NCBI GenBank assembly: GCA_963555705.1
Contig: OY743171.1
Coordinates: 15,809,352 to 15,873,351 of the forward strand
Reading direction: 5' to 3'
DNA from: Ligustrum vulgare
Lineage: Eukaryota > Streptophyta > Magnoliopsida > Lamiales > Oleaceae
DNA: 64,000 bases
Shown: positions 646 through 37,925 of the stretch, piece after piece
Position numbering within the stretch: position 1 is the first letter of the stretch
Layout: every line of letters starts with the position of its first letter
Made by a program: the position numbers and the translations under genes
The notes under the pieces: generated by a model
Told to the model about the DNA's origin: nothing
What the model saw: only the letters and a program-made list of their open reading frames with translations
The model's database searches: none

Positions 646-2302
646 TGTAACGCCCCGAGTTCCGAGGAGCGCGGGAGCGTCACTTTTCTAAATTCTTGAA
701 TAAACTTTATTGCGGAAAATGAATTAAATATTAAATAGTACATTTATTGGATATAAGTTTAACGATAATTCAGATTAAATAAAGAAATTCTTACAAACTT
801 ATAAAAAAATGAAAATTCTTGATAAAATGAAATGTTTATTTCGAAATCTACGACTTTCAAAAAAATAATATCCAAATTATATTCTTCGCCATTGCCCATC
901 ACTCGTCTCCGTCACCGAAATCTGCAAATTTGTTAAAACAACGGGGTGAGCATTTCAAAAATGAAATACTCAGTAGACTCAACTCCAATAATTAATCTAT
1001 AAGATAATTTGACAAGTAATCATGCAAATAATGTAGTGATGTTCTTTTCTTATCCATAAGCATCATAAAATGAGTGCAAATGAACACATTCTTTTCTTGG
1101 CATCATGCTAGCAGATAAGTTATGACATGCATAACATAAATTCTCAAATTTATCTCAAACGAGATATTCTTTTCTTTTCTCATGCAATTAAGCATACAAA
1201 ATCACACAAATCCACATAATCACGTGCAATTATAAAATAAATCAATTAGTGGGGGCGAGTCTACCTTTAACGTTACAAATTCTCAAAGATTTTGGAGCGG
1301 GAAGTACGTCAATCTCTTAATTCTCCAAATGATTCGTCTAGCCAAGAAAATTAAATTAAATTAGTATCTTGAAATTTACAGTTTTGAAATAAAACTAAAG
1401 TTTGGGATTTAAAATAAATAGTTTTAAAAACTTGGGACTAAAATGGAGTTTTTTTTTTCGAAAATTAAAGGACTCATTTAAAATGCTGCTTAAAATAATC
1501 AGGGACTGAAATAAATTTTTTTGGAACTTAGGGCTGAACTCTAGCTACTTAAAATATTTTAGGGACTGAAACAATTTAAAACGACAAATTAAGGACCTAG
1601 AAGCAATTTTTTTTTAAAAAAACAAAGTTATATAAAAATATATATATACATAACACACACTCTCTCTTCTCTATCTAATACCGACAGAGAGAAGAGAGAC
1701 GGAGAGTGAGGGGAGGGTGGACGCCCTCCTCTCCGATCGATCGCCGGTGCAGAGAAACGACAGTGGGGAACCTGGGTGAGCAAGAAAAATGGAGTTTTTG
1801 GGTGCGATTTTTGAGGAAAATCGAGGCTCCGCCCGTGTGTTCTCCGGCGAAAATTTACGACTGAGGTATGTAATAGGCTTCTGAGGTTGTGGGTTTGTAT
1901 ATTTGTGCCTTTAATTTGAGTTTTAGGGAGTTAGGGGAGACGGCTGTGGTGGCGGTCGAGGTGTGGATTGCGGATGCTGGGAAAATTGATATTTGGTTTT
2001 TGATTTGGGTTGCTATTTGGCTGGTTCTATGGTTTCATGGTGGTAGTACCGCAGGCTAAGTGCTGCGGCTTGTTAGCGTTTGGCGGTGGTGGTAGTTGCA
2101 GGCAGATTGGTGGTTGGGTTGTGACCTTGATTTGGAAGTGGTGGAATGGGTTTGCGGAGAATTAACGGAGATGCAGAGGCAATGGCGGTTGGCTGAACGA
2201 CGTACGTGAATTTTAAGTAACGGGTTAAATTATAGCGACGCGGTTCTTAGTAAATAAAATACTTATTTTAAAAATAAATTCCGAAATTTCACGGTCGCTA
2301 CA
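646..2302 (-). repeat. LTR A (3' LTR of the minus-strand chromovirus)
   Basis: It starts TGTAACGCC at 646 and ends GGTCGCTACA at 2302, about 1657 bases. It matches 7976-18138 with the nested element removed, but lacks two blocks present in that copy: about 445 bases (17586-18027 in the other copy) and about 26 bases near 1743. The large difference is most simply a deletion in this copy. The microsatellite-like CT/GA tract at 1665-1705 is present in both. Confidence 0.93.
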
Positions 2303-3099
2303 ACCTTACCCCCTTAAAATAATTTCGTCCTCGAAATTTATGACTTACTTGGTCCAAAATATCTGGATACTTGGCCATAATTTCTTCTTCTTTTTCCCAT
2401 GTAGCCTCATCGCTACTTTGTCTACCCCACTGGACTTTAACTAGAGAAATTTCTTTATTTCTTAGGACATGGACTTTTCTATCAATGATGCATATGGGTG
2501 CCTCTTCATAATGTAGATTCTTCTGAATTGGGATTGACTGAAAGTTCACCACATGACTGGGATCGTGAACATATTTTCTCAACAAAGAGATGTGAAAAAC
2601 ATTTTGTATAGCTGAGAGTTCGGGTGGCAATGCTAAACGATAAGCCACGTTACCTACTTTCTCCAATATTTCAAAAGGTCCGATAAACTGAGGCCTTAAT
2701 TTCCCTTTCTTGCCAAAATGAATAGTACCCTTCATAGGAGAGATTTTCAAAAACACTTTCTCTCCAATCACGAACTCCAAGTCTTTTCTCCTCTGATCGG
2801 CATAGCTTTTCTGTCTGTCTTGGGCAGCTTTAATTCGCAATCTGATTTTCTCGATAGCCTCTACAGTCTTTTCAATTAACTCGGGACCCAATAACTTCCT
2901 CTCACCAACCTCATCCCAATATACCGGCGATCGACATTTTCGCCCATACAGTGCTTCATACGGTGCCATACCAATGGTAGCCTGAAAACTGTTGTTGTAA
3001 GCAAACTCCACCAATGGAAAGTGAGCTTCCCAATTGCCGCTTAGGTCCAGAACACAGGCTCTAAGCATATCCTCTAAAGTCTGAATGGTGCGCTCAGAT
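2298..3099 (-). pseudogene. Chromovirus integrase C-terminal half with chromodomain-like tail
   Basis: After an in-frame TAA stop at the integrase signature (HPQTDG then stop then SERTIQ; usually a CAA glutamine codon), the frame stays open to a TAG inside the LTR at 2298. The order visible is the end of the integrase core (FAYNNS, YEALYGRKC), the GPFEI and VFHISLLRKY segment of the C-terminal domain, then a chromodomain-like stretch (VKVQW, DEATWE, YPDIL). This tail is known in chromoviruses to direct insertion. The ORF ends by reading through the polypurine tract, as in related plant elements. Only the upstream stop prevents a continuous pol. Confidence 0.88.
2303..2320 (-). other. Polypurine tract of the chromovirus
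   Basis: Read on the minus strand, a TTTTAAGGGGGTAAGGT purine run lies directly against the LTR. The same tract is found before the 3' LTR of the nested element (15225-15241), which shows the two are relatives. Confidence 0.8.
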
Positions 3100-4340
3100 T
3101 ACCCGTCTGTCTGCGGGTGGTAAGCGGTACTAAAATTTAATTTAGTCCCCATAGCCGTGTGTAAGCTCTTCCAAAATCTCGAAGTAAATCTCGGATCCCT
3201 ATCTGAGACAATATACGCTGGAATCCCGTGAAGTCGAACGATCTCCCTTATATAAATCTGGGCCAAGTGATCTATACTGAGAGTCATCCGCACTGGAAGA
3301 AAATAGGCTGACTTTGTAAGTCGGTCTACAATAACCCAGATTGCGTCATGTCCCCTCACTGTTCTTGGTAAGCCTGTTACGAAATCCATGGAAATTTTCT
3401 CCCATTTCCATTCCGGAATGTCTAATGGATTTAGCAGTCCTGGCGGTCTTTGATGTTCAGCATTGACCTGCTGGCAGGTCATGCATCGTGAGACGAACTT
3501 GGCAATACACCCTTTCATATTCCTCCACCAGAATGTGGTACGCAAATCTCGGTACATCTTTGTTCCTCCTGGGTGAGCTGCATATGGAGCTGAGTGGGCT
3601 TCCCTCAATATTTCATTCCTGATCTGATCATCTTTCGGTACACACAGGCGACCCTTGAATAATAGTGCCTTGTCAATTCCGATTTCAAAATCTGCTCTCT
3701 TGCCAGTTCCAACTTCGGCTTTGATCTTCTCCAAAAACTTATCACTTTCTTGAGCCATCACGATTCTGCTTCTCAAATCTGGTTTAACTGTCAAATTTGC
3801 CAATCTGCTAGAACTTTGGATTCCTGGGTTTCTTACTTCAATTCTCAAGTTCTGAAAATCCCGAATCAACCGTTCTTGTACTGTTCCCAAAACTGATAAT
3901 TGACCCACATCCTTTCTGCTTAGTGCATCTGCAACCTTATTAGCCTTGCCCGGGTGGTAAAGAATGGTACAATCATAATCCTTCACCAGTTCCAGCCATC
4001 GACGCTGTCTCATGTTCAATTCCTTCCGAGTGAAGAAATACTTGAGGCTTTTATGGTCGGTGTAAATCTTGCATTTACTCCCATATAGGTAATGCCGCCA
4101 AATCTTAAGAGCGTGTACAACGGCGGCCAGTTCTAGATCATACATCTGATAGTTTTTCTCGTATGGCTTCAACCGTCTCGAAGCATAGGCAATCACTTTA
4201 CCTTTTTGCATCAACACACATCCCAAACCATGTTTCGAGGCATCGCTGTATATCACAAAACCCTCAGATCCATCCGGCACTGCTAACACTGGTGCTGAAA
4301 CCAGTCTTTTCTTCAATTCCTGGAAGCTTCGTTCACACTG
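3100..4340 (-). pseudogene. Chromovirus RNase H and integrase N-terminal and core region
   Basis: After the TAG at 4341-4343 (following KFQWT), the same frame continues with the RNase H ([45 protein letters not shown]). Next come the integrase zinc region ([17 protein letters not shown]) and the core with catalytic aspartates in SMDFVTG and VSDRDPRF. The frame stops at 3100. Together with the flanking ORFs this is one polyprotein broken by single stop codons, not frameshifts. Acts as cDNA-synthesis and insertion machinery in the parental family. Confidence 0.9.
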
Positions 4341-5737
4341 CTATGTCCACTGGAATTTTACACCCTTTCGTGTCAACTGAGTCATGGGACCCGCTATCTT
4401 AGAGATACCCTCTATAAATCGCCGGTAATATCCAGCTAGTCCCAAAAAGCTTCTTACATCACCGACATTCACTGGCGTAGTCCAATTACTCACTGTCTCC
4501 ACTTTTGACGGATCAACTTCGATGCCATTGACTGTAACAATATGACCCAGAAAGCCTATCTTCTCAAGCCAAAATTCACATTTCTTAAATTTGGCGTATA
4601 ACTTTTCTGCCCGTAGTGTCTCCAACACGATTCTCAGATGTTCTGCATGCTGCTGTGAATCATTAGAATAGACTAGAATATCATCAATGAAGACAATAAC
4701 GAACTTATCCAAGTACTGATGGAAAACCCGGTTCATCAAGTCCATAAATACTGCAGGTACGTTCGTAAGACCGAATGGCATCACCATGAACTCATAATGT
4801 CCATATCGAGTCCTAAACGCTGTCTTTGGTATATCCGCAGACTTGATCTTCAATTGATGGTAACCGGACCTTAAGTCCATCTTTGAAAATACCGCAGCTC
4901 CTTTCAGTTGATCGAACAAATCTTCGATTCTGGGCAGGGGGTACTTGTTCTTTATCGTCAACTTGTTCAATTCCCGATAATCAATGCACATTCTCATACT
5001 GCCATCCTTCTTCTTTACAAATAGCACAGGTGCTCCCCACGGAGACACACTTGGCCTAATAAAGCCCTTCTCTAGCAGTTCTTCCAGTTGGACTTTCAAT
5101 TCTTGTAATTCTTTTGGTGCCATACGATACGGGGCTTTCGAAACAGGGGCAGCTCCCGGCACTAAGTCAATAGTAAATTCCACTTGCCTATCAGGCGGAG
5201 TACCAAATAGGTCTTCTGGAAATACATCTTGAAAGTCACACACAACTGGCACTGACTCCAATTTGATTTCCTCGACAGACTTTCCTTGGAGGTTAACCAA
5301 ATAACTCTGACAGTTTCCCTTAGCAATCAGCTTTTTGGCTTGCATAGCCGAGATAAGGCGAGGGAGTGCTTTAACCTTTGAACCATAAAATCTGAACACC
5401 TCATCCCCATTCTTCCGAAATACTACTTCTTTCTCATGGCACATGATCGCGGCACTGTTAGAACTTAGCCAATCCATTCCTAGGATAATGTCGAAGTCCT
5501 TCATCGAAATAATATTCAGGTCTGCCTCAAGCACTGTCCCATCAAAATCTATTCGTACAGCCTTGACTATCCTACTAGTATTAAGAATTTCTCCTGACGG
5601 TAAGCTTACTTCAAGCACACTACCAGTTATTCCACCCACTAAATTCAATCTAGTTAAGCATGAGTCGGAAATAAATGAATGTGTAGTACCCGAATCTACT
5701 AGGACGTATACGGGAATACCAGAAACAGATAAAATGC
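4341..5737 (-). pseudogene. Chromovirus protease and reverse transcriptase
   Basis: Starting at the predicted splice acceptor (5738), the reading gives an aspartic protease ([12 protein letters not shown]). The reverse transcriptase follows, with [53 protein letters not shown], the catalytic FIDDILVYS, then FLGHIV and [13 protein letters not shown]. Lengths and order are those of a plant chromovirus pol. A TAG after QWT ends the ORF at 4341. An ATG at 5748-5750 lies inside the putative intron, so start-codon use and splicing give alternative N-termini. Confidence 0.92.
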
Positions 5738-5828
5738 CTGTTATCGTCATTCATATTATTAATTCGAGCTATGCATGATACATGAAATTAAGTAATTCAA
5801 GTATATGAATGTTGAAATAATGGTATAC
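5738..5828 (-). other. Putative 91-bp intron between gag and protease
   Basis: The gag frame reads DSDVIAG up to a donor (GCAG then GTATAC, boundary 5829/5828). An acceptor (ATAACAG, boundary 5738/5737) restores the frame as [20 protein letters not shown], exactly the junction expected for a continuous chromovirus gag-protease. Unspliced, the segment contains in-frame stops. The alternative is an insertion that only looks like an intron. Spliced introns in plant retrotransposons are known from Ogre elements; here splicing is inferred. Confidence 0.55.
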
Positions 5829-6837
5829 CTGCAATCACGTCGGAGTCCTCAACGGCCTCCATGGCGAATACCCTAGCCTTCCCTTTCCTGTTCTGGTCAA
5901 TGTTCTTCTTCTGGTCCGAGCCTTGTGCAGGTGCTGCGTTACAATCTCGAGCAAAGTGGACCGGTTGGCCACATCGGTAACAAACCACTTTGTTGCCAAA
6001 GAGGCATTCTCATTTATGTGTCTTCTGGCACTTCGGACATGGTGGAAGGAAACTGATCACCTGACCTCTGCTAGGTCCTGTATTCTGTCTCTTATTGAAA
6101 TTCTGGTTCCTGTTCTGATGATGACCATGCCATTTCCGTTTACCTTGCTGCCCTTGATTGTTCCGATTGCCTTGAGTGCCAATATTTGCACCAGCAAAAG
6201 CCACAGCCTGAGCTTTCTTCACAACTTCTCGGTAAGTGGGCAGTTCATGCGAGCCAACAATCTGCCTGATATCCGAACGCAGACCTCTCTCAAATCGGCG
6301 TGCCTTCTTAACTTTGGTTTCCACTAGATGTGGAGCATACCGTGACAGTTCCTCGAACTTCCGTTCATAGTCAGTGATGTCCATCTCACCCTGAACTAGT
6401 TGTAAAAATTTGGTCTCCTTGTGGTCTCTGAGGGCTTGTGGGAAGAACTTGTCTTTGATCTCTTCCTTAAACTCTTCCCAGGTCAACGCTGCCTGCTCCT
6501 CTTCGGTCCTAGTCCGTGATGCGGACTCCCACCAAAAGCCGGCCCTACTGATCAACATAAATTCTGCACAAGTAACCTTCTTGTCCTCAGGGCAAGAGAT
6601 ATGCTTGAAAATCCTCTCGATCCCCTGTAACCACTCCTCTACGGCCAATGGATTGTCCCCGCCATCAAAAGTGGACGGACGATACCTCCTGAATTGTTCG
6701 ATAACTGGCACTGAGGAACCTGTTGGGGCCTGCCTCAAATCCTGAACTGCCTGCAGTAGATCCCTAATGATATTGGCCTGGTTTGGGGGATCCTGCCTTG
6801 GAGCAGTCTGACCTTGGTTGGTCTGATTCGGTGCATC
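5829..6837 (-). pseudogene. Chromovirus gag (capsid and zinc knuckles)
   Basis: The frame opens just after a TAA at about 6838-6840. It reads a capsid-type domain (FRRYRPSTFDGG, AVEEWLQGIERIF, ALTWEEFKEEIKDKFFP), then a basic N/Q/R-rich segment, then two zinc knuckles. A first C-x2-C (CPKCQKTHK) is followed by a TGA at about 6008-6010, and a second knuckle (CYRCGQPVHFARDC) continues in the same frame. The second knuckle has V where G is usual. The stop between the knuckles and the missing initiator make this copy unable to give full-length Gag-Pol. Confidence 0.87.
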
Positions 6838-7085
6838 TTAAGCGCCGAGACATTTTCCTTTATCACGTAAGACAAATAGATTTATTATTTCTTGATAGGA
6901 AAATACAGACAACCAATCATCTCATACATTCAATCTTAATAACAACGTGAAACATAGCTCGTGAAATAAATGAATCTCTTTATTAATAAATAAAATTCCT
7001 CAATGAGGATACATTATTATTTCAGGAATGAGAAAAACTGTTGAAAAGGAAAAATGCCAAAACACCTATCACTAGTCCTATCCCA
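6838..7085 (-). other. Spacer between the pre-gag ORF and gag
   Basis: Stops occur in all minus-strand frames. It may be a second intron or an untranslated link between ORF1 and gag; no convincing donor and acceptor pair was identified by eye. Confidence 0.4.
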
Positions 7086-7562
7086 CTAAATATGACTATT
7101 GATAGGGGTAGTCCCAGGCGTGCCAGGTGTATAATCTGGGGCACCGGGTGAGGCACTTGGTGAACCTGGGGAGTAGTCTGGTGATTCTGAAACATAACCT
7201 TGTAACCCAGGCGTATAATCATAGGTCCCTGACTGAGCATCAGATATTTCATCTGGCTCCTCCTCGTCATCCGATATTACTATCACTTCTGGTGTGAATG
7301 CTGGCGCTGGTGCAGGGACTCGGAAACGATCCCATCGCATTACAAATTCGTCGCAGACAGTCTGGAAGCTCATGTCTTCTCCCAGACGTCTCTTTGCATC
7401 ATCATAAAATGCGAACGCCTTAGTCTTCTTATTTTTTGGGAATGACAATATAAGTTGGAGGATGAACTGAGCGTCGGTCATCCTAAATCCGCTAGCCATG
7501 AAGTGATGGCGCATGTCGCAGAAGCTAAGAATGTGGTCTGAAATCCATCTAGATGGTGCCAT
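7086..7562 (-). CDS. Pre-gag ORF1 of the chromovirus, 158 aa
   Basis: The ATG at 7560-7562 (MAPSRWISDH) is the first AUG after the PBS in element orientation. The N-terminal about 85 residues look globular, with an acidic stretch after (SDDEEEPDE). The C-terminal part is a low-complexity P/G/S/Y region with repeats related to YSPGSP and YTPGTP. I do not recognise a family. The same start region, including about 30 bases upstream, is preserved in the nested element at 11955-11990, so it is an old part of this lineage. It could be the N-terminal end of Gag if joined by splicing, or a separate leader protein. Confidence 0.6.
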   Translation of the reverse strand: MAPSRWISDHILSFCDMRHHFMASGFRMTDAQFILQLILSFPKNKKTKAFAFYDDAKRRLGEDMSFQTVCDEFVMRWDRFRVPAPAPAFTPEVIVISDDEEEPDEISDAQSGTYDYTPGLQGYVSESPDYSPGSPSASPGAPDYTPGTPGTTPINSHI

Positions 7563-7960
7563 GTCTAAAATCGAATTATGCAAAGTCCAGTTAGGGTTTC
7601 ATTATTTATTTAATTCTAAGGACGAAATATTTTATAAAAAATGTCTTAAATCGTACTAATTCCCATTATGCTCCAAAACTCGTTTCTTTCTTTCTTTCTC
7701 ATTTTTCGGATACTAGTTTTTCTAATTCTTTCTCGTCTTCTCTTTTCTTTTCTTTTCTCGTCAAATTCTCAAAACATTTATTCTCAAGTATCCGAAATAA
7801 ATCAATAAAGTAAACATACTAAACTTCGTTACCTTCGGAGTCGGCGGAAAATGATGACAATGGCAAAAGTCGTCAAAACATTATTTTCTATTATTTTTAG
7901 AAAAAATTATTTTCTTGTTTAAAAAAATTTTTTTTTGCAAGTCCACAGAAACGTTGACCC

Positions 7961-7972: not shown

Positions 7973-9353
7973 CGCTGTAACGCCCCGAGTTCCGAGGAGC
8001 GCGGGAGCGTCACTTTTCTAAATTCTTGAATAAACTTTATTGCGGAAAATGAATTAAATATTAAATAGTTCATTTATTGGATATAAGTTTAGCGATAATT
8101 CAGATTAAATAAAGAAATTCTTACAAACTTATAAAAAAATGAAAATTCTTGATAAAATGAAATGTTTATTTCGAAATCTACGACTTTCAAAAAAATAATA
8201 TCCAAATTATATTCTTCGCCATTGCCCATCACTCGCCTCCGTCACCGAAATCTGCAAATTTGTTAAAACAACGGGGTGAGCATTTCAAAAATGAAATACT
8301 CAGTAGACTCAACTCCAATAATTAATTTATAAGATAATTTGACAAGTAATCATGCAAATAATGTAGTGATGTTCTTTTCTTATCTATAAGCATCATAAAA
8401 TGAGTGCAAATGAACACATTCTTTTCTTGGCATCATGCTAGCAGATAAGTTATGACATGCATAACATAAATTCTCAAATTTATCTCATACGAGATATTCT
8501 TTTCTTTTCTCATGCAATTAAGCATACAAAATCACACAAATCCACATAATCACGTGCAATTATAAAATAAATCAATTAGTGGGGGCGAGTCTACCTTTAA
8601 CGTTACGAATTCTGAAAAATTTTGGAGCGGGAAGTACGTCAATCTCTTAATTCTCCAAATGATTCGTCTAGCCACGAAAATTAAATTAAATTAGTATCTT
8701 GAAATTTACAGTTTTGAAATAAAACTAAAGTTTGGGATTTAAAATAAATAGTTTTAAAAACTTGGGACTAAAATGGAGTTTTTTTTTTTCGAAAATTAAA
8801 GGACTCATTTAAAATGCTGCTTAAAACAATCAGGGACTGAAATAAATGTTTTTGGAACTTAGGGCTGAACTCTAGCTACTTAAAATATTTTAGGGACTGA
8901 AACAATTTAAAACGACAAATTAAGGACCTAGAAGCAAATTTAAAAAAAAAACAAAGTTATATAAAAATATATATATACATAACACACTCTGTAGCGACCA
9001 AGAATTTTTACGCGATTAATAATTATTTTAATGGAAAATCGTGTCGCTACTATTTCACCCATTTTTATTAAGTTAACGCCACGACGTATTCGTATAGCCA
9101 AGTCAAGAAATAATCGAGATCGTTCGATTTTAAATTAAATTCCGAATTTCTAAAAATATCTCCATTCTCTTGATTTAAAGTATATTAAGTCCAAGTACTT
9201 AATTCAATGTTATCCCAATATTTATTTATACAAAAATTATTTTTATTATTGAAATTAAGAAAATATATGCAAGCATGAGAGGTTCCATTATATATAATAA
9301 TTATGAGAATCTTAATTTAATAAATATGGAAAAGTATATGAATGAATTATATA

Positions 9354-9705
9354 CTCCATTATATGTAATCATGAAGAGCATAATATTTGTATAAATATGG
9401 AAAAGTATATGAATGAATTATATACTCCATTATATGTAATCATGAAGAGCATAATATTTGTATAAATATGGAAAAGTATATGAATGAATTATAGACTCCA
9501 TTATATGTAATCACGAAGAGCATAATATTTGTATAAATATGGAAAAGTATATGAATGGTTGATAAGATTCCATTATATGTAATCATGAAGAGCATAATAT
9601 TTGTATAAATATGGAAAAGTATATGAATGGTTGATAAGACTCCATTATATGTAATCATGAAGAGCATAATATTTGTATAAATATGGAAAAGTATATGAAT
9701 GGTGC
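9354..9705. repeat. Tandem repeats in the nested LTR (about 83-bp units)
   Basis: About four to five copies of a unit containing AAATATGGAAAAGTATATGA, a variable ATTATATACTCC or GGTTGATAAGACTCC segment and ATTATATGTAATCATGAAGA. The same array is repeated in the 3' LTR at 15606-15957. Confidence 0.9.
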
Positions 9706-9927
9706 TTTACTTTAAGAAAAGGATGTGTTAAAATTAATAGAATTGAATGATTATGTTTACAATATGCCAACTTTATACATCTATTTAAACTCATCTCTTT
9801 TACACACAACTCTACACATATACACTTATTTCCAATCTCTTGACAAAATCCACAAGTAAGAGAAATTCAAGGTGGTCAAGAAAGTTTTGGTCCATTTACT
9901 ACTACACTTCATTTTAATCTTTTAAAA

Positions 9928-10250
9928 GGTAAGTATATATTATGTTTTTATGAAAAGTAAGTATGTTTTTATGAAAGGTAAATACACCTTATGTTTTTAT
10001 GAAAAGTAAGTATGTTTTTATGACAAGTAAGTATATCTTATGTTTTTATGAAAAGTAAGTATGTTTTTATGAAAGGTAAATACACCTTATGTTTTTATGA
10101 AAAGTAAGTATGTTTTTATGACAAGTAAGTATATCTTATGTTTTTATGAAAAGTAAGTATGTTTTTATGAAAGGTAAATACACCTTATGTTTTTATGAAA
10201 AGTAAGTATGTTTTTATGACAAGTAAATATATCTTATGTTTTTATGAAAA
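9928..10250. repeat. Short-period tandem array in the nested LTR
   Basis: Alternating units of TATGTTTTTATGAAAAGTAAG and variants with GGTAAATACACC or CAAGTAAGTATATC form a higher-order repeat of about 96-100 bases. Repeated at 16180-16502 in the other LTR. Confidence 0.85.
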
Positions 10251-10764
10251 TGTTTGGATCATTGCTATGAAATCAATCTCACAAGATTGTTATGGGTTCC
10301 ATATGATATGTTTATGATTATGCTAAGGGGACCGGAGTTTAGTAGCGCTACACATAAGAATTCTTGCCATTTAAGTTCGGTAAAATTCTTGTGTCTCCCT
10401 ATGTTTATGAGTATTTCGATCCTATCCTATGTTATGATGAAAATGATCCATATGCTTTCAAAAGAAAATTTATGCTTGGTATACTTACTGAGATTTTATA
10501 AATCTCACTCCACGATATTTACCATTTTCAGATAATTGAAGGTTCGAGGCGGTCAACATGGAAGTGGCAAAAGTGGTTAAGATTGATGAGATAATTATGT
10601 TGAACTTTATGTAAGAAAATTATGTTCTATTTTTATTCATAAATAAAATTATGGGATTCTAATTATTCTTTTGAATAATTTTACATTTCTATTTAAGTCT
10701 CGATAATATGATATGAGTCACTTTTAGTGGCACTCGAATGGTCGAGAATTCGGGTCGTCACAGT

Positions 10765-10776
10765 TGGTATCAGAGA
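10765..10776 (+). other. Primer-binding site of the nested element
   Basis: TGGTATCAGAGA, 11 of 12 matches to the initiator tRNA-Met complement, two bases after the 5' LTR. Confidence 0.85.
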
Positions 10777-10819
10777 CAAGAGTTTTAAAAACGATTCTGT
10801 AGATTTTTGAAATTTTATT

Positions 10820-10861
<42 letters not shown>

Positions 10862-11586
10862 ATTCACGTGAACAGTAAAACGACGTGCTATTCATGATGA
10901 ACAGTGAACGAAATCACTATTCAATTAAAAAAAAAAAATTTGAATTTTCACATGTCAAGTATGGTTATGATTTTGAAAAGTATGATGAAATTTGATGTGC
11001 GAATTTCAAGGACAAAATTCATTTTAAGCAAGGGAGTTTGTAATGTTCTGAAAATTTTATGGAATATAATTAGTTAGTGATATGATGTTTATATTGATGT
11101 CTTTGATAAATTTCTAGAAGTTCGGGGACTAAAGGAAAATAAGATTTGACGATAAAATTTTATTTGGGTTAATTAGGCCCAATCTTATGTAAAGATGCGA
11201 AATGATTAATAATAATTTTTTTTTTAAAATATTTTAACTCATCACTCTACTATGTCACTCTCCACGTATTGACTCCTCGAACCAGGTATGTTATATGCTT
11301 TGCAAGTCATTTACGATTTTATTAAGACATGTTAAGTATGAAATATTCATATGTTATGAATCTTTAAGTGAAATATACATGTTGAGTATGATATGAATTG
11401 ATAGAAGCCTAAATTTTAATTTATTCATTTTAATGTAGAATCATGAGACATAGAGGATATTGATATGAATTTTGGTTCATATTAAGCTTAGTAAGATTGA
11501 CTCAATTAGAAATTAAGTTGGGTTGTAACTTTGGCCCAAAATATATGGAATAATATATTAAACAAACAAAATTGATAATGAATTGT
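10777..11586 (+). other. Leader of the nested element, no coding sequence seen
   Basis: Contains an A-tract at about 10826-10859 and short repeats of an ACAGTGAAC/CTATTCA type at 10861-10925. The rest is AT-rich sequence without a recognisable ORF. Confidence 0.5.
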
Positions 11587-11868
11587 ACAATAATTTATCC
11601 CTTTATCACTACCTTTGTGTAAAAATAAGGGAAAAACTGTGGATGGTTATTAGTACTTCCTCTTCAAGTTTCAATTTTCGGTTCAATAATTTATCCCTTT
11701 ATCACTACCTTTGCTTAAAAGCAAGGAAAAACTGTGGATGATTATTGGTACCACTCTTCAAGTTTCAATTTTCGGTTCAATAATTTATCCCTTTATCACT
11801 ACCTTTGCTTAAAAGCAAGGAAAAACTGTGGATGATTATTGGTACCACTCTTCAAGTTTCAATTTTGA
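11587..11868. repeat. Three tandem copies of a roughly 94-98-bp unit
   Basis: Each unit contains AATAATTTATCCCTTTATCA, then ACTGTGGATG, and ends CTTCAAGTTTCAATTTT. Copies two and three are almost the same; copy one is more diverged. A short inverted repeat (CCTTTGCTT with AAGCAAGG) lies inside each later unit. Confidence 0.85.
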
Positions 11869-11949
11869 AAAAAAAAAAATAAAAATAAAAAAAAAATATG
11901 ATTTACGAATGATTTTCAAAATAATCTTTGTCGTCAAGTTTAGAAATGA

Positions 11950-12060
11950 TGAGCCCTAAATGGACTTTGCATAATTGATTTTAGACATGGCACTAAGTAT
12001 GAGAAGTCAACAGAAAGGACTAGATAATATTTTCGAATTATTCATCGTTTAGATTAAACG
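11950..12060 (+). pseudogene. Remnant of the retroelement pre-gag start
   Basis: The stretch GACTTTGCATAATTGATTTT followed by AGACATGGCA (ATG at 11987) matches, in the same sense, the ORF1 start of the outer element (7590-7555, minus strand). Homology stops soon after the ATG. This marks where the gag-pol body was lost or replaced. Confidence 0.65.
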
Positions 12061-12610
12061 AGAAATAGAAAGTCAGTTTTATGAAGTTATGATGAGATGT
12101 TGAGATTATAAGTGATATGATTTTATTGAGATTTTTATGAGAAGAATTATGAAGTTGGAGATTTAAAGTTTAGGCTCTTAATTATTGAGAAATAAGGACT
12201 TGATATGGTGATATTAGAAATTATGATTTGAAATTTCTATGTTGAGGAATTATGAATTGATTTTCTGGAATATTTATGATGATATTGAAGTTTGATGAAA
12301 TTGTGATCAAATGTACAATTAGTTATTATTGTGAGTTATGAAGTATGCTTACGATTTGGATAAGTCCAAATTTCAAAGGAAAACTCTGCCTAGAATTTTA
12401 TCGTTTGGAGTTAAGAGCATAGTATGGTATGCAATCACTAAGAGAATTGAAGTTAGACATACAAGTTCATTTACATCACAAACGAGATTTAGTAGATGAT
12501 AACAGAGATATTATTATTTTCTCATAAGGAGAACACACAAGAGTCACCCTAGAAAGGAAATACATGAAAACACGCAAAAGCAAAAGAAAGCAACATGGGA
12601 AATTCCTCAA
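12061..12610 (+). other. Unassigned interior sequence of the nested element
   Basis: AT-rich, no ORF. A few phrases (for example 12380-12420) could be decayed pol, but I cannot place them. The transition to the antisense gene cassette lies at about 12500-12600. Confidence 0.35.
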
Positions 12611-12612
12611 AT

Positions 12613-12756
12613 TGAGAGGTGTGTTTCGAGAGTAAGAATACTCCGTAATCTACCACCTGGAACCTTTGAGGTACACACAAGATTTAAACATTAAGGAAAT
12701 CCTAGGAAATTAGAGGGGTGTCTCGAGAGTAAGAATACTCCGTACTCTACCCCCAC
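12613..12756. repeat. Direct repeat pair with stem-loop downstream of LOG
   Basis: Two copies (12613-12657 and about 12711-12756) share CGAGAGTAAGAATACTCCGT and flanking GAGGTGT and CTACC elements. In the second copy AGAGTA pairs with TACTCT around an 11-base loop; in the first copy the 3' arm has one mismatch. They lie just after the stop codon of the LOG ORF on its strand, so they could form its 3' end structure. Confidence 0.7.
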
Positions 12757-12768
12757 CTATTCTAAGAT

Positions 12769-13422
12769 TCATAAAGTTAAGTTTACATTAACCGGACTCC
12801 ATTTTCGCTTGATTCCCCTTCCTTGCGACCAATCTATCTTAACCCCTGCTGGATCTTGTATTGAGATATATGACTGCAGCTTATCCAGTAGTTCATCAAT
12901 AGTAGGAGCAGAAATAAGGAGCCTTCTGGAAAATGGAGAGATGAATCCCTGTTCCACAGCATAATCAAGAAAGGTTAACAAGCCATCAAAGAAATTGTTA
13001 ACATTCAGAAGCCCAATAGGCTTAGTATGGAGATCTAGTTGAGCCCACGAGGTAATGTTAAAGATTTCTTCTAAGGTACCAAAACCTCCGGGCAGGGCTA
13101 TAAAGGCATCAGAACCATATAGCATACAAGTTATGCGTTCATGGATGGATAAGGTTTGAACTTCATGCCCTCGTGTTTTTCCTGCAACATCTACCAAAGG
13201 GACAGGTATGACACCGATTACTTTTGATTTCTCTGCAAGAGCAGATTGGGAAACACAACCCATTAGACCACTGCTACCACCCCCATACACAAGAGTGATA
13301 CCTTTTTCCCCCAGTTTCTTTCCAAGATCTACGGCCGCTTCTAGATAACTGAAGCCTTTCCCCACTTTTGATCCACAAAATACACAAATAGTTTTGATCT
13401 GTCGAAGTTTTGGTGCTTCCAT
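12769..13422 (-). CDS. LOG-family cytokinin riboside 5'-monophosphate phosphoribohydrolase, intronless
   Basis: The 217-aa ORF (ATG at 13420-13422, TGA at 12769) has the usual length of plant LOG proteins. Visible landmarks are ICVFCGS near residue 11, LVYGGGSSGLMG near 44, VIGVIP near 68, HER in place of the usual MHxRK arginine-lysine pair near 93, the catalytic PGGFGTLEE near 111, WAQL and GLLNVNNFFDGLL. LOG enzymes release free cytokinin bases from their nucleotides in the cytosol or nucleus. Plant LOG genes normally carry several introns; this copy has none and sits antisense in a retrotransposon, so it looks like a captured retrocopy or virus-borne gene. A CTTTAAATAG box lies about 75 bases upstream. 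No disabling change is seen, apart from the K-to-I change in the HERK-type motif. Confidence 0.9.
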   Translation of the reverse strand: MEAPKLRQIKTICVFCGSKVGKGFSYLEAAVDLGKKLGEKGITLVYGGGSSGLMGCVSQSALAEKSKVIGVIPVPLVDVAGKTRGHEVQTLSIHERITCMLYGSDAFIALPGGFGTLEEIFNITSWAQLDLHTKPIGLLNVNNFFDGLLTFLDYAVEQGFISPFSRRLLISAPTIDELLDKLQSYISIQDPAGVKIDWSQGRGIKRKWSPVNVNLTL

Positions 13423-13496
13423 CTTTGATAGTATAGAAGAGAAAACTTACGAAGAAGATGTGATTTTGGGATGCCTGAACTATGAAATATGTTTGG

Positions 13497-13506
13497 CTAT
13501 TTAAAG
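13497..13506 (-). promoter_or_regulatory. TATA-like box upstream of the LOG ORF
   Basis: On the minus strand CTTTAAATAG lies 75-85 bases before the LOG start codon. Nearly the same motif precedes the neighbouring cysteine-rich ORF. Upstream (13540-13585) are two TTTTGAC motifs on the plus strand, one fitting the W-box core TTGACT. The role is inferred. Confidence 0.45.
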
Positions 13507-13612
13507 CCGGAAAAACTTACTGTTTTTCATTGATTCTGAAAAAGTAAAGATTTACTTTTGACAAAATCGGCCAACTTTTGACTGTTTTACCAAAGATATC
13601 ACCTTTCGGTGA

Positions 13613-13705
13613 TTTATTTCCAGCTTTATCAAACCTCGAGAAAGGAAAATATATTTATTTCCAGCTTTATCAAAACTCGAGAAAGGAAAATATATTTTAT
13701 TTCCA
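13613..13705. repeat. Tandem 41-42-bp repeat in the spacer between the two antisense ORFs
   Basis: Two near-complete copies of TTTATTTCCAGCTTTATCAA plus ACTCGAGAAAGGAAAATAT, with a third truncated copy. They lie between the end of the cysteine-rich ORF and the LOG promoter region and could be promoter duplications, a feature seen in some viral and transposon promoters. Confidence 0.8.
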
Positions 13706-13759
13706 AAACGCGTGAAAGAAAACAGCAAAATATTTTAAATGTGTATCAAGAGATTTACC

Positions 13760-14311
13760 TTATATCATTGATGAACTGCCAGAAGCCTCATTTTGTAAAA
13801 CAGACTGGCAAACAGGATCTTTTGCTATTATATTTTGGAGACTATAACGATTTTTGTCCCCGTTAAACTGAGCGTATAAGGAGAAAAGTTCACGTTGCAC
13901 ATAACCACTTGGGTGCGTCTCAAGAGTCAGTCGAATATCATCCAAAGACTCCTTACTCAGTCCACCCTTTATGAATTTGATTTTATCATCCCGATTAGTA
14001 GAAGAATATCCTACTGTTTTGCAACGAGTATCACAGTTCCAACGAGCACATTTGTAGCAACCATTCAGCCTTTTTGCTCTTCGTTTCTTTGCGAAGGTGC
14101 TTTTGCCTAAACCAGGCATGTGCTTTGGAAATGTCATAGGTAATTCACCAGATAGTCGAACCTTTGCTTCGATCAACCAGCGAACATCTTCTGAAACACC
14201 ATGAGCCATCAGCAACCTCAATCTTTCGAGTCTTATTCGATAAATTTTCCTCAGATCATTCATTGGAAGACTGGAATAATACTTGCGAATGTTTGTAAGA
14301 ATGATATCCAT
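13760..14311 (-). CDS. Basic cysteine-rich protein resembling plant RNA-virus nucleic-acid-binding proteins
   Basis: The 183-aa ORF starts at the ATG at 14309-14311 and ends with TAA at 13760. Residues 66-83 give GxSxxAxxRRA followed by C-x2-C-x4-C-x3-C (CYKCARWNCDTRC). A basic run directly before a short zinc-finger-like cluster is the signature layout of the cysteine-rich nucleic-acid-binding proteins of carlaviruses and relatives (Betaflexiviridae), where such proteins act in silencing suppression or host gene control. The cysteine spacing here is shorter than usual. After it come FIKGG and a polar tail. It reads the same way as LOG, 337 bases upstream, with its own TATA-like box. An integrated viral gene is the best guess; an unrelated plant zinc protein is possible. 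No stops or frameshifts are present. Confidence 0.55.
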   Translation of the reverse strand: MDIILTNIRKYYSSLPMNDLRKIYRIRLERLRLLMAHGVSEDVRWLIEAKVRLSGELPMTFPKHMPGLGKSTFAKKRRAKRLNGCYKCARWNCDTRCKTVGYSSTNRDDKIKFIKGGLSKESLDDIRLTLETHPSGYVQRELFSLYAQFNGDKNRYSLQNIIAKDPVCQSVLQNEASGSSSMI

Positions 14312-14344
14312 GTTTTGATGGATCTAACCTCTTCCCAGCATGAA

Positions 14345-14355
14345 CTATTTAAAAG
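14345..14355 (-). promoter_or_regulatory. TATA-like box upstream of the cysteine-rich ORF
   Basis: On the minus strand CTTTTAAATAG lies about 34 bases before the start codon, closely matching the box before LOG. Such short spacing would give a very short leader. Confidence 0.45.
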
Positions 14356-15039
14356 CATTAAGGATCGGAGGAAATCCGCGTGATATTGATTCCAGCAAGA
14401 AAGCGCGGAATAGAATAATGGAAAAGAGGGAACAAGAGTTATGCGCCGTTTACTTTCTTGATAAAAGGAAGATTTGATGATGACGGGATTTGAGATATGG
14501 AATATTTTCTTGGATTTTGGGTACTGATATTTTGATATAATAATCAAGGTATAGAAATAATACGGGGATACGTGAAAGTGAAATAAGGACTGTATTGAAT
14601 CAGGATTAATAAGTTTGTGCAAGTGAAAGGAATACCTTACGGGAAATGTTATGATATTTGAGTTAAGAATTTTAATTATTTGGGAGATATTTGTTTATTG
14701 AATTTTGCAGAAATTTTGGGTTACAAATATTGGAAAGATAAACTGATGATTATGTTGATATGTGAATAACATGTTTGGGTATATTACATAGAGAATATTC
14801 AGGTAATCGTTTTAATTATTTTGGGATATTTGGTGATAAGAAGAAATGACAAATTATTATGGTATGATATGTTAGTAAAGATTTATTGAAATTTTAGAGA
14901 TATTAATACGAATATTTGAGGTTACATGATACGATGATAAGTGACAGGTTACATGAGTACTACAAGATATGATGAAATATCACATACGATTGGGAATTTT
15001 CATTTTGATTCAGAAGAATTTATGAGTAGACATATGTCT
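14356..15039. other. AT-rich interior of the nested element
   Basis: An open frame on the minus strand (14260-14622) has no recognisable domain and overlaps the promoter-like box, so it is not called. The rest shows no structure. The right boundary of the antisense cassette probably lies near 14630-14650. Confidence 0.4.
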
Positions 15040-15200
15040 ATTATTGATAGAAAAGTTCATGTCTTAAGAAAACAAATTGATGCATTTAGTCAAAGTCCAG
15101 TGGGTTAAATATGGTTGGGTTAAATATGGTAGCGATGATGCTACATAAGAAGAAGAAGAAGAGATTCTGATTAAGTGTTCAGAAATCATAAGATCAAGTA
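15040..15200 (+). pseudogene. Remnant of integrase C-terminal chromodomain-like tail
   Basis: Interrupted reading matches the tail of the outer element's integrase: IDRKVHVLR, QSPVG (for KVQWG), SDDAT and a run of glutamates before the ILIK segment. A short internal duplication of GGTTAAATATGGT is present. It ends at the polypurine tract (15225-15241), so the 3' end of a normal pol was kept when the interior was replaced. Confidence 0.65.
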
Positions 15201-15224
15201 AGTTTAATTTCGAGGACGAAATTA

Positions 15225-15241
15225 TTTTAAGGGGGTAAGTT
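15225..15241 (+). other. Polypurine tract of the nested element
   Basis: TTTTAAGGGGGTAAGTT directly before the 3' LTR start at 15242, preceded by CGAGGACGAAATTA as in the outer element. Confidence 0.85.
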
Positions 15242-17014
15242 TGTAGCGACCAAGAATTTTTACGCGATTAATAATTATTTTAATAGAAAATCGTGTCGCT
15301 ACTATTTCACCCATTTTTATTAAGTTAACGCCACGACGTATTCGTATAGCCAAGTCAAGAAATAATCGAGATCGTTCGATTTTAAATTAAATTCCGAATT
15401 TCTAAAAATATCTCCATTCTCTTGATTTAAAGTATATTAAGTCCAAGTACTTAATTCAATGTTATCCCAATATTTATTTATACAAAAATTATTTTTATTA
15501 TTGAAATTAAGAAAATATATGCAAGCATGAGAGGTTCCATTATATATAATAATTATGAGAATCTTAATTTAATAAATATGGAAAAGTATATGAATGAATT
15601 ATATACTCCATTATATGTAATCATGAAGAGCATAATATTTGTATAAATATGGAAAAGTATATGAATGAATTATATACTCCATTATATGTAATCATGAAGA
15701 GCATAATATTTGTATAAATATGGAAAAGTATATGAATGAATTATAGACTCCATTATATGTAATCACGAAGAGCATAATATTTGTATAAATATGGAAAAGT
15801 ATATGAATGGTTGATAAGATTCCATTATATGTAATCATGAAGAGCATAATATTTGTATAAATATGGAAAAGTATATGAATGGTTGATAAGACTCCATTAT
15901 ATGTAATCATGAAGAGCATAATATTTGTATAAATATGGAAAAGTATATGAATGGTGCTTTACTTTAAGAAAAGGATGTGTTAAAATTAATAGAATTGAAT
16001 GATTATGTTTACAATATGCCAACTTTATACATCTATTTAAACCCATCTCTTTTACACACAACTCTACACATATACACTTATTTCCAATCTCTTGACAAAA
16101 TCCACAAGTAAGAGAAATTCAAGGTGGTCAAGAAAGTTTTGGTCCATTTACTACTACACTTCATTTTAATCTTTTAAAAGGTAAGTATATATTATGTTTT
16201 TATGAAAAGTAAGTATGTTTTTATGAAAGGTAAATACACCTTATGTTTTTATGAAAAGTAAGTATGTTTTTATGACAAGTAAGTATATCTTATGTTTTTA
16301 TGAAAAGTAAGTATGTTTTTATGAAAGGTAAATACACCTTATGTTTTTATGAAAAGTAAGTATGTTTTTATGACAAGTAAGTATATCTTATGTTTTTATG
16401 AAAAGTAAGTATGTTTTTATGAAAGGTAAATACACCTTATGTTTTTATGAAAAGTAAGTATGTTTTTATGACAAGTAAATATATCTTATGTTTTTATGAA
16501 AATGTTTGGATCATTGCTATGAAATCAATCTCACAAGATTGTTATGGGTTCCATATGATATGTTTATGATTATGCTAAGGGGACCGGAGTTTAGTAGCGC
16601 TACACATAAGAATTCTTGCCATTTAAGTTCGGTAAAATTCTTGTGTCTCCCTATGTTTATGAGTATTTCGATCCTATCCTATGTTATGATGAAAATGATC
16701 CATATGCTTTCAAAAGAAAATTTATGCTTGGTATACTTACTGAGATTTTATAAATCTCACTCCACGATATTTACCATTTTCAGATAATTGAAGGTTCGAG
16801 GCGGTCAACATGGAAGTGGCAAAAGTGGTTAAGATTGATGAGATAATTATGTTGAACTTTATGTAAGAAAATTATGTTCTATTTTTATTCATAAATAAAA
16901 TTATGGGATTCTAATTATTCTTTTGAATAATTTTACATTTCTATTTAAGTCTCGATAATATGATATGAGTCACTTTTAGTGGCACTCGAATGGTCGAGAA
17001 TTCGGGTCGTCACA
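15242..17014 (+). repeat. 3' LTR of the nested element
   Basis: 1773 bases, matching 8990-10762 with about two visible substitutions (G to A near 15286, T to C near 16043). All tandem arrays and their copy numbers are the same in both LTRs. Confidence 0.95.
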
Positions 17015-18138
17015 CACTCTCTCTCTTCTCTATCTAATACCGACAAAGAGAAGAGAGACGGAGAGTGAGGGGAGGGTGGATGCCCTCCTCTCCGATCGAT
17101 CGCCGGCTGCAATGCCGGCGATAATACCGCCGGTGCAGAGAAACGACAGTGGGGAACCCGGGTGAGCAAGAAAAATGGAGTTTTTGGCTGGTTTTTGGGT
17201 GCGATTTTTGAGGAAAATCGAGGCTCCGCTCGTGTGTTCTCCGGTGAAAATTTATGACTGAGGTATGTAATAGGCTTCTGAGGTTGTGGGTTTGTATATT
17301 TGTGCCTTTAATTTAAGTTTTAGGGAGTTAGGGGAGACGGCTGTGGTGGCGGTCGAGGTGTGGATTGCGGATGCTGGGAAAATTGATATTTGGTTTTTGA
17401 TTTTGGTTGCTATTTGGCTGGTTCTGTGGTTTCGTGGTGGTAGTACCGCAGGCTAAGTGCTGCGGCTTGTTAGCGTTTGGCGGTGGTGGTAGTTGCAGGC
17501 AGATTGGTGGTTGGGTTGTGACCTTGATTTGGAAGTGGTGGAATGGGTTTGCGGAGAATTAACGGAGATGCAGAGGCAATGGTGTGAAGTGTGATTGTGT
17601 GGTAATTTTGGAGGTTGGGTGGTGATGCTGATTTCGTGTCATCAGATTATGAATTTCAGATTGATCTTGCTGGAGGTAGAAATTACCTGTTCTGGGAATG
17701 CTGAATTCGTGAGTATCAGAATAATGGTGATCGGGAATATAATGGTTGGATAGGTAGTGATGGAGTTGGATTACAATTACATAACCTCGTCAGATAAACA
17801 TGGGTTAAGAAATTGATGAGGTTGAATTTGGGTAAATCACAAAATTTTCAGGATAATTATGAACTCGAACTGATAATTTGGATAATTTAGAATTTAAAAA
17901 GAGAATAAGCTAGAATTTAAAATTTGGATAAACATTGGATTTTAAAAAAATAGATTTTGAATTTATTGGACGAAAAAAATCAAGTTGGACTGAAATTTTT
18001 TATTTTCGACTCAAAATTTATAACTTGGCTAAACGACGTACGTGAATTTTAAGTAACGGGTTAAATTATAGCGACGCGGTTCTTAGTAAATAAAATACTT
18101 ATTTTAAAAATAAATTCCGAAATTTCACGGTCGCTACA

Positions 18139-34062: not shown

Positions 34063-34077
34063 TAAAAAAGAGCCAAC

Positions 34078-37000
34078 CCGTTCACACAAGAAATCCTAGA
34101 TGAACCCCTTCCGAGAAGTTTCAAGTTGCCTAGTCTGCCGGAGTATGATGGAGCGTCTGACCCCAAAGAACACCTTGAACGCTTCGACAGTATGATGTTA
34201 CTTTACGGCTTCCCCGACGCCATAACCAGTCTAGTATTCCTAACTACTCTGAAAGGGAGTGCACAAACTTGGTTCTCTCAGTTACCCCCCAAGTCCATCT
34301 CTGGTTTTGAAAGCTTCTCCGATTGTTTCCTTAAAAATTTTGCTAGCAGCAAGAGGTATCGAAAAACAAGTGGACAATTAATGACAGTAAAACAAAAAAA
34401 GGGCGAGTCTCTCAGAAACTACATACAGCGCTACAACAAGGAAGCGTTGGAAGTCCCTAACCTTGATCCCAAGCTATCTGCAGCGATCCTGACAAATGGG
34501 TTGAGACAAGGGCGGTTTTTCATATCATTAACAAAGACTCCGCCGGTTGACATCACAGAGTTATTAGCCAGGGCTAAAAAATATATCAATGTCGAAGAAG
34601 CACAAAAGGCGAAAGAAGAAATTGAAAATCAGGCTAAGAGGAAGGATGTGAAAGAGCCAACCGGAGAAGATCGGAAGAAACAGAAAGTCCGGGATTCAAA
34701 TAGAGATTTTCGAGGCAAATATCAGAATTACACGCCCATCAACGCTTCATTACAAGAAGCTGTCATGTCGGTATCACACAAGGGCGTAGTCACATGGCCA
34801 AAACCAATAAGGGATGATGGGCGTCGCCCTGTCAACGATGCATATTGCTGGTTTCATAAGGGTCCAGGACATCGAACAGAGGATTGCTACCAAATGAAAG
34901 ACGAAGTTGAGCGCTTGATCAGATCGGGATATTTGGGAAAATTCATCATGAAGGAAAGAGATATGGAGGATAGAGGGCAACACGCCCCTCCCGAGCGGAG
35001 ATCACTTGACCGCAATGAACTTCAGAAAAACAATCCACAAGGAGGAGTTATTGCTGTCCTCTCAGGAGGACCTTCCTGCGAAGATAGTAGATCAGTAAGG
35101 AAGGCTTACCAACGAGACGTTCGCCAGAGGATTTCTGTATGGGACCGTATCGGTAACCCGGAAGTAATGCAAATAAGTGGCCAACAAGAGCAGTCAGTCA
35201 CTTTCAACGACGAGGACCTCATGGGAGTTAATTTCCCGCACAAAGATGCAATTGTTATATCAATGATGATAGCAAATTATGAGGTAAGGCGAACTTTAGT
35301 TGACACAGGCAGTTCTACGGATGTATTATTCTATCCAGCTTACAAAAAAATGGGATTGGATCCTAGACACCTGAGGACAGTGAGCACCCCTCTTGTCGGT
35401 TTCGGAGGAGGAATAGTCAGGGCCGAAGGAGTTATAGATTTGCTGGTATCTTTGGGAGAAGAACCACGAAGAAAAACAAAGATGGCAAGCTTCGTGGTAG
35501 TCAGAACTCCATCTCCGTACAATGCCATACTTGGAAGGCCAACGTTAAATCAATTCCAAGCCATCTCTTCTACCCTCCATTTGAAAGTAAAGTTCCCAAC
35601 ACCTCAAGGAGTAGGGGAGGTCAGGGGAGATCAAGCTGTAGCACGAACATGCTTCGTGACGGATATACAAAAAATGTTAGCATCGGAGAAGGAGCCTACA
35701 CCCCAGGGGAACTCTGAAAGGAGAGACAAGGAGGCACGATTTACAGTAGCGTCGGATGAAGTGTTAAAAGTTCTGGCCTTAGAAAAAAATGATGAGACCA
35801 AAAGTACAAGAATTGGTGGCCACCTCGGTACAGAGATGGAACAGAAATTGAGCGCTTTCTTGATTGAGAACCGGGAAATTTTTGCATGGAAACCTACAGA
35901 CATACCGGGCATCGATCCCTCCATCGCCTGCCACCATCTACAAGCGGATCCAGAGATAAGACCGAAGAAGCAGAAAAAAAGGTTCATGGGGGCAGAAAAA
36001 TCAAAAATTGCAGAGCAAGAAGTGGACAAACTCTTAGAGGCTGGGTACATTTGCGAAGTCAAGTACCCAGAGTGGTTAGCAAACATTGTACTGGTACCGA
36101 AAGCTAACGGTTCATGGAGGATGTGTGTTGACTTCACCGACTTGAACAAGGCTTTCCCAAAGGATCCGTTTCCGCTCCCTAGAATCGACCTACTTGTGGA
36201 CTCGACATCAAGATGTGAATGGTTGAGTTTTATGGACGCTTTTGCAGGGTATAATCAAATCCGAATGGCTCCAGAAGACGAAGAGAAAACTAGCTTCGTA
36301 ACTGATAGCAGAATCTATTGCTATCGCCTAATGCCGTTTGGATTGAAAAACGCGGGAGCCACTTACCAGAGGTTGGTGAACCAAATGTTCAAGGGGTTAA
36401 TAGGGAAGAGCATGGAAGTATATGTCGACGATATGTTGGTAAAAACTCATAAAGGGGGGTGCCACATACATGATCTACAGCAAGCTATTGAAGTCATGAA
36501 AACATTTGGGATGAAGCTTAACCCTGCCAAATGCACCTTTGGAGTACGCTCTGGAAAATTCCTAGGATATATGGTATCCGAACGAGGTATAGAAATCAAC
36601 CCAGACAAGATAAGGGCTATACAAGAGATGACAGCCCCTCGCAACATACAAGAGATCCAGAGGCTCACTGGAAGAATAGCAGCACTCAACCGATTTCTAT
36701 CCCGTGCAGCCGAAAAAGGTATGCCTTTTTTTAAAATCTTGCGAAAGTCAAAAAATTTTGAATGGACAAGTGAATGCAGTGAAGCTCTTGAGAAACTTAA
36801 ATACCATTTATCATCACCTCCCTTGCTAACAAAACCAAATGAAGGGGACCATTTGTACATCTATTTAGCAGTGTCAGAAGAAGCAGTTAGTTCAGTGCTG
36901 GTGAAAGAAGAAGGGAAGGCACAGAAACCCATATACTACGTGAGCAAAATGTTACATGGAGCTGAAGTAAGATACACCACAACAGAGAAGGTAGCATTGG

Positions 37001-37314
37001 CCCTTATCACAACGGCCAGAAAACTTCGTCCATACTTGCAATCGCACCAAGTGACAGTCCTAACCGACCAACCTCTACTGCAAACATTGGCTAAACCGGA
37101 TGTTTCAGGAAGGATGCTCAAATGGTCAATTGAATTGGGAGACTATGGGTTGGACTATAAACCGCGACCAGCTATAAAAGGACAGGCACTTGCAGATTTT
37201 ATAGTGGAATGCACGCACGGGGAAAATCAACCGGAACAACCTATTGAGCCAGAGTGGACAATACATGTTGATGGATCATCATCACTACAGGGGGCGGGAG
37301 CAGGTCTGTTCTGA
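34078..37314 (+). pseudogene. Tat gag-protease-RT-RNase H polyprotein
   Basis: From the ATG at 34126 the frame is open for 1062 codons, and it extends upstream to at least 34078 (FTQEILDEPLPRSFKLPS) where the SINE cuts it. Order: gag (HLERFDSMM, TWFSQLP, SGQLMTVKQ), a zinc-knuckle-like CWFHKGPGHRTEDC near residue 242, protease VDTGSSTDVLFY near 391, RT ([49 protein letters not shown] near 765), first RNase H (TDQPLLQTL near 978), and the start of the archaeal-type RNase H (WTIHVDGSSS). A one-base loss near 37308 shifts the frame and ends the ORF. Confidence 0.9.
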
Positions 37315-37922: not shown

Positions 37923-37925
37923 TAA

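Follow-up and report, generated by a model that had tools for sequence, protein, structure and literature searches.

Why does a retrotransposon that has lost almost all of its own coding capacity carry two undamaged genes on its opposite strand? The question is raised by an element at positions 8990-17014 of a 64,000-nucleotide stretch of Ligustrum vulgare DNA (contig OY743171.1, positions 15,809,352 to 15,873,351 of the forward strand), hereafter called the window. The element is a gutted, non-autonomous long terminal repeat (LTR) retrotransposon with near-identical ends, and its minus strand encodes a cysteine-rich protein (CRP) followed by a LOG-type protein. We propose that plant Ty3/gypsy elements recurrently carry the CRP-LOG pair as an accessory module, whose predicted role is manipulation of the host cell and not copying of the element; in our judgement this proposal could fall either way.

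The original prediction, made from this DNA alone, had described a recent non-autonomous element with two intact open reading frames (ORFs) on the opposite strand, each with its own TATA-like box, and the present analysis agreed with it on all of these points. The CRP (183 amino acids) comes first in minus-strand order and LOG (217 amino acids) second, and both ORFs are intact and intronless. The CRP matched the Pfam families Viral_NABP (32.4 bits, cut-off 23) and Carla_C4 (23.0 bits, cut-off 20.9), and LOG matched Lysine_decarbox (116.4 bits, cut-off 27) and LDcluster4 (43.1 bits, cut-off 26.3), with Arabidopsis At2g37210 as its nearest solved structure. Furthermore, LOG retains the PGGFGTLEE stretch and the HER motif, so that by its sequence it would belong to the LOG family as recognised by Lysine_decarbox, PGGxGTxxE and an upstream Arg motif. 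The TATA-like box in front of each gene is the 9-mer TTTAAATAG, which occurs five times on the minus strand of the window and never on the plus strand; besides the two gene boxes, each LTR contains a single occurrence, and the fifth lies beyond the element.

Relatives of both proteins were found in other plants. The search with the CRP gave 343 matches and that with LOG gave 7230, of which 120 each were listed; another, with a two-domain Orobanche protein, gave 150 matches, 120 of them listed. Among the 301 listed proteins from which pairs were counted, 25 contain both domains (21 from Orobanche, three from Citrus and one from Acer), and the CRP precedes LOG in all 25. When a stricter regular expression was applied, 18 two-domain proteins were counted among those listed. 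The LOG part of the Orobanche and Citrus models was recognised by seeds from the same genus, namely P0262 and the second half of P0289 itself, and the precomputed Pfam domains back it in 24 models; in the remaining one, the Citrus model P0292, they show the CRP domain alone. The organisms named among the listed CRP relatives are Orobanche, Populus, Xanthoceras and Acer only, all of them plants, and the aligned CRPs matched Viral_NABP in 35 and Carla_C4 in 32 of 37 cases. A search of IMG/VR with the CRP sequence and with the CRP alignment gave no confirmed relative; when the LOG alignment was used, 24 loci were matched, with identities of 24-41%. Among the matches listed, three of the 19 LOG contigs of at least 2 kb also coincide in size with one of the 41 CRP contigs (2128, 8723 and 4511), where 0.15 coincidences were expected and none of 20,000 trials gave three. 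We take these size matches as supporting evidence only.

A CRP was also found behind pol in a locus designated L001. Positions 1-3330 of L001 are a plant-type retrotransposon fragment on a contig filed under a metagenome-assembled genome of Candidatus Nomurabacteria; judged by its content, the fragment is probably plant DNA contaminating the bacterial assembly. Its integrase ORF is followed by an intact CRP of sense orientation and, beyond that, by a purine tract. L001 may be of the Athila type, with its integrase ahead of the CRP; it contains no LOG, and a pol of this kind is missing from the window element. Steinbauerova et al. reportedly described, in 2011, two Athila-like elements with similarity to LOGL4. 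The 21 residues that follow the stop codon of the L001 CRP, RAFKPLLDVKLEEDVSHNHNY, coincide by eye count at 18 positions with the segment by which CRP is joined to LOG in the Acer model. Because 25 models are paired and the CRP stands behind pol in L001, the pair does not represent a capture private to this element. The view that each ORF is peculiar to the window element was accordingly rejected.

The comparison with L001 also bears on whether the genes are maintained. Over the first 171 codons, the CRPs of the window and of L001 share 64% amino acid identity, with 0.26 nonsynonymous substitutions per site (dN) against 1.31 synonymous ones (dS) and hence a dN/dS of 0.20 (bootstrap 95% interval, 0.08-0.33); the differences at codon positions 1, 2 and 3 number 49, 33 and 76. 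When 181 codons were compared, dN was 0.30 and dS 1.30. In 400 simulations of random substitution at 28% divergence, the CRP frame remained open in none. Judged by these codon comparisons, the CRP lineage is under constraint between the window and L001, which is a statement about the lineage and not about this copy. This constraint concerns the CRP and does not extend to LOG.

The LOG relatives have a further common property, a C-terminal tail. They extend past the last conserved Trp with a basic patch and a Leu-rich end, for example KKRKLDLTLRL, whereas the solved Arabidopsis chain nearly ends at that Trp (aligned to residue 207 of 215). Such an extension, of 6-22 amino acids, is present in 110 of the 120 listed LOGs, among which an LxLxL end was observed in 89 and a basic patch in 93. 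LxLxL falls within the last ten residues of 97 of 134 LOG-like proteins and in only 4 of 2962 ten-residue stretches elsewhere; the control for ordinary host LOGs consists of two Arabidopsis chains. LxLxL is the EAR co-repressor motif. The catalytic motif PGGxGTL[EG]E is retained in 106 of the 120 listed LOGs. In 18 listed proteins the conserved Arg motif is replaced by SVHD[NS]L, and 12 of these keep an L[DN]LSL end. Among 21 PGGYxTL proteins in the later matches listed, 11 have Asp in place of Gly before the Thr, and two Citrus models that lack the catalytic stretch still end in KCKLDLTLRL or KYKLDLTLGL, a gap explicable by introns in the gene models. Many Orobanche copies have degraded catalytic motifs and a retained tail, from which it follows that cytokinin may not be the sole function. 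The original notion of a mobile cytokinin cassette is consistent with the motifs kept by the window LOG; it fits these Orobanche copies less well. Among the matches listed, the same transposon-type tail is borne by dozens of 'LOG' gene models from Reevesia pubescens, spread over many of its chromosomes, and these are probably transposon genes that have been counted as host genes.

In a tree of 32 LOG rows, the sister of the window LOG is P0121 (93% identity), and both fall in a group supported at 100/99 together with P0124, P0125 from Diospyros and an Orobanche paired LOG. The Orobanche and bacterial rows are uncertain because their branches are very long. Distances among CRPs and among LOGs were correlated over 12 pairs (r 0.82), a value inflated by near-copies. 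As co-divergence was not significant once near-copies were set aside, we do not claim a single ancient pair that was always co-inherited.

Several observations weigh against the proposed module. One genus, Orobanche, provides 21 of the 25 paired models, and the L001 fragment contains no LOG. The dS of 1.31 between the window and L001 CRPs is close to saturation. The Acer paired LOG clusters with a Xanthoceras LOG, AtLOG3, AtLOG8 and a bacterial LOG (100/98), and a second Orobanche paired LOG clusters with P0217, apart from the group of the window; taken literally, these placements suggest that LOG may have joined CRP repeatedly, or that host and element LOGs were exchanged. Neither seven representatives (r 0.40, p 0.14) nor five physical pairs (r -0.33, p 0.77) gave a significant correlation of CRP with LOG distances. 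The tail of the window LOG, VNVNLTL, narrowly fails the strict LxLxL pattern and so does not qualify as an EAR motif. Finally, the AlphaFold model of the CRP had a mean pLDDT of 58.4, which is too low for use of the fold.

These points leave room for other explanations. The two genes might be passive passengers, a CRP-LOG block that recombined into a defective chromodomain element, gives it no benefit and is intact by youth. The two differences between the LTRs correspond to approximately 43,000-81,000 years at assumed plant rates, too brief for decay; the GC content steps at the edges of the block (31-42% by part over 12501-14650, the 31% in the spacer only, compared with 26-28% in the LTR and elsewhere in the interior), and no autonomous element bearing this LTR is present in the window. 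However, the constraint on the CRP between the window and L001, and the simulations in which its frame never stayed open, speak against mere carriage, again for the lineage and not for this copy, and we regard the passenger explanation as unlikely, although it deserves serious attention. The explanation of the original prediction was a private double capture, in which the element acquired a LOG transcript from the host and, separately, a carlavirus gene that had become integrated, to give the cytokinin cassette. Both ORFs are intronless and antisense, as would be compatible with independent insertions, and the core motifs of the window LOG are kept, but the invariable order of CRP and LOG in the paired models, the CRP behind pol in L001 and the presence of an Orobanche paired LOG in the tree group of the window LOG (a very long branch of unsure placement) make such a history very improbable.

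It is also conceivable that LOG is irrelevant as an enzyme and that the pair acts as nuclear regulators, a zinc-finger protein accompanied by a LOG fold that serves as a scaffold and recruits co-repressors of the TOPLESS type through its basic LxLxL tail. The frequency of the LxLxL end and the basic patch, the excess over background stretches, the SVHD[NS]L proteins that keep their L[DN]LSL end and the two tailed Citrus models (introns being possible) all agree with this. Against it, the enzyme core is widespread among the listed LOGs, and the tail of the window LOG falls just short of LxLxL; we consider a purely regulatory pair quite improbable.

Under the accessory module that we propose, the element would be mobilised by enzymes from an intact relative, and CRP and LOG would each be transcribed from their own minus-strand promoter. 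Published work describes viral CRPs as suppressors of silencing, one of them being a transcription factor that induces hyperplasia (PMC12172455). By analogy, the element CRP may resemble its carlavirus counterpart in function: as a nuclear protein that binds nucleic acids, it would suppress silencing or serve as a regulator, and thereby protect the element or alter transcription in the host. Through LOG, active cytokinin would rise locally and favour dividing, meristem-like cells, from which new copies could reach the germ line. In most relatives the basic LxLxL tail might add a nuclear co-repressor role able to outlast the enzyme activity. A broader idea is that flowering-plant retrotransposons possess a module made of a virus-type zinc-finger silencing suppressor and a cytokinin-activating enzyme that an added basic LxLxL tail has made a nuclear co-repressor, a module which moves between backbones (behind pol, or antisense with its own promoters) and is used like the effector set of a pathogen. 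We offer this idea tentatively and think it doubtful as a whole.

The anatomy of the carrier is summarised in Table 1. The original description of matching 1773-bp LTRs with about two differences, a CACTC target-site duplication (TSD), a primer-binding site (PBS) and a polypurine tract (PPT) was found to be correct throughout: both LTRs have TG...CA ends and differ at two positions, TGGTATCAGAG begins just 3' of the 5' LTR, and AAGGGGGTAAG lies immediately 5' of the 3' LTR (before 15242). We take TGGTATCAGAG to be a PBS of the initiator-Met type and AAGGGGGTAAG to be the PPT. Thus, the LTRs, TSD, PBS and PPT expected of an LTR retrotransposon are present. As also stated originally, nearly no gag-pol remains. 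The ORFs of at least 60 amino acids are those in the LTRs, the CRP, LOG and one short overlap, and complete gag-pol is absent.

Table 1. Coordinates of the features of the element in the window
Feature	Position	Strand	Basis
5' TSD copy, CACTC	8985-8989	.	
5' LTR, 1773 bp, with 71-bp and 49-bp tandem repeats	8990-10762	+	
Presumed PBS, TGGTATCAGAG (initiator-Met type)	10765-10775	+	
gag-start remnant of chromodomain gypsy type	11944-12000	+	Alignment with window 7540-7620, minus strand
CRP-LOG block, GC-enriched relative to surroundings (approximate edges)	12501-14650	-	
LOG-type ORF, 217 amino acids, intact PGGFGTLEE, C-terminal tail IKRKWSPVNVNLTL	12769-13422	-	
TTTAAATAG box, 74 nt 5' of LOG start codon	13497-13505	-	
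CRP ORF, 183 amino acids, Viral_NABP/Carla_C4, basic KKRRAKRL patch, Cys-rich motif	13760-14311	-	
TTTAAATAG box, 33 nt 5' of CRP start codon	14345-14353	-	
Frameshifted chromodomain end of pol, into polypurine tract	15008-15241	+	Alignment with window 2298-2535, minus strand
3' LTR, 1773 bp	15242-17014	+	
3' TSD copy, CACTC	17015-17019	.	

The two gag-pol remnants align with a neighbouring gypsy element: that of the gag start at 90% over 52 bp, and that of the pol end over approximately 230 bp (about 15008-15239), into the purine tract. A tentative assignment to the chromodomain Ty3/gypsy elements (chromoviruses) comes from this frameshifted remnant, aligned with the end of the neighbour that encodes the chromodomain, pol not being intact in the element; the last ORF of the neighbour itself barely exceeds the Pfam Chromo cut-off (25.5 against 25.1 bits). 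The neighbour (2298-7600, minus strand) contains gag, RNase H, integrase and chromodomain ORFs and is of the lineage of the remnants, with a different LTR. It was rejected as the autonomous partner, since its interior ends align with the element and its LTRs do not. No further copy of the element's LTR was found within the 64-kb window. Another gypsy element lies at 34066-38702 on the plus strand, with an intact 1082-amino-acid ORF (gag, reverse transcriptase and RNase H) and an integrase ORF. Tandem arrays were observed in both LTRs, a 71-bp unit repeated 5.9 times (9284-9701 and 15536-15953) and a 49-bp unit repeated 6.7 times (9925-10250 and 16177-16502), and a 94-bp unit is repeated 2.9 times in the 5' interior (11588-11866).

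In the available part of one study, the antisense extra ORFs of plant gypsy elements are so far without clear relatives or functions (PMC7264820). Here, two such ORFs have named domains, one common to plant RNA viruses and the other to a hormone pathway, and they occur together in three genera. If the proposed module is real, the role of extra ORFs could be approached by routine assays of silencing suppression, nuclear entry, LOG activity and TOPLESS binding, and plant viruses and retrotransposons would be linked through a common counter-defence protein. It would also call for caution among annotators, since some plant 'LOG' gene models would be transposon genes.

Among known systems, judged from the portions of the papers at hand, the closest are LTR retrotransposons of Citrus and Populus, in which a LOG (YgdH) domain has already been published with reference to Steinbauerova 2011 (PMC9289625). 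They resemble the present case in having LOG as an extra ORF of Ty3/gypsy elements, and Citrus also has paired models here; a CRP partner, a C-terminal tail and an antisense non-autonomous carrier are not described in that portion. The gypsy elements of Phalaenopsis with AlkB (same source) likewise represent a lineage with a fixed extra functional domain, one that also occurs in plant viruses, but the enzyme is another one and the elements come from two species of one genus. Retand, Grande and RIRE2 carry antisense extra ORFs within gypsy elements, some of them predicted to bind DNA or observed in the nucleus (PMC7264820, PMC11963269). Unlike CRP and LOG, these ORFs code for TRP28 or for uncharacterised proteins. 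They occupy the region from pol to the 3' LTR, in elements with pol present, and show no viral or LOG similarity in those portions. The CRPs of carlaviruses, allexiviruses and mandariviruses (PMC12172455) have the same arrangement of a basic stretch followed by a Cys-rich motif and the same Pfam families, whereas they come from RNA virus genomes and the retrotransposon CRPs have longer N- and C-terminal parts, the likeness being one of Pfam match. In the titles, abstract openings and passages covered, mainly from open-access literature, we found no CRP in retrotransposons, no CRP-LOG pairing, no LOG tail and no antisense relocation. The original view that no described element couples the two proteins therefore stands for the pairing, and not for LOG in gypsy elements. 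As far as these sources go, the finding is only partly new: LOG in gypsy elements was already known, and its partnership with CRP, its tail and the antisense relocation are apparently the new part.

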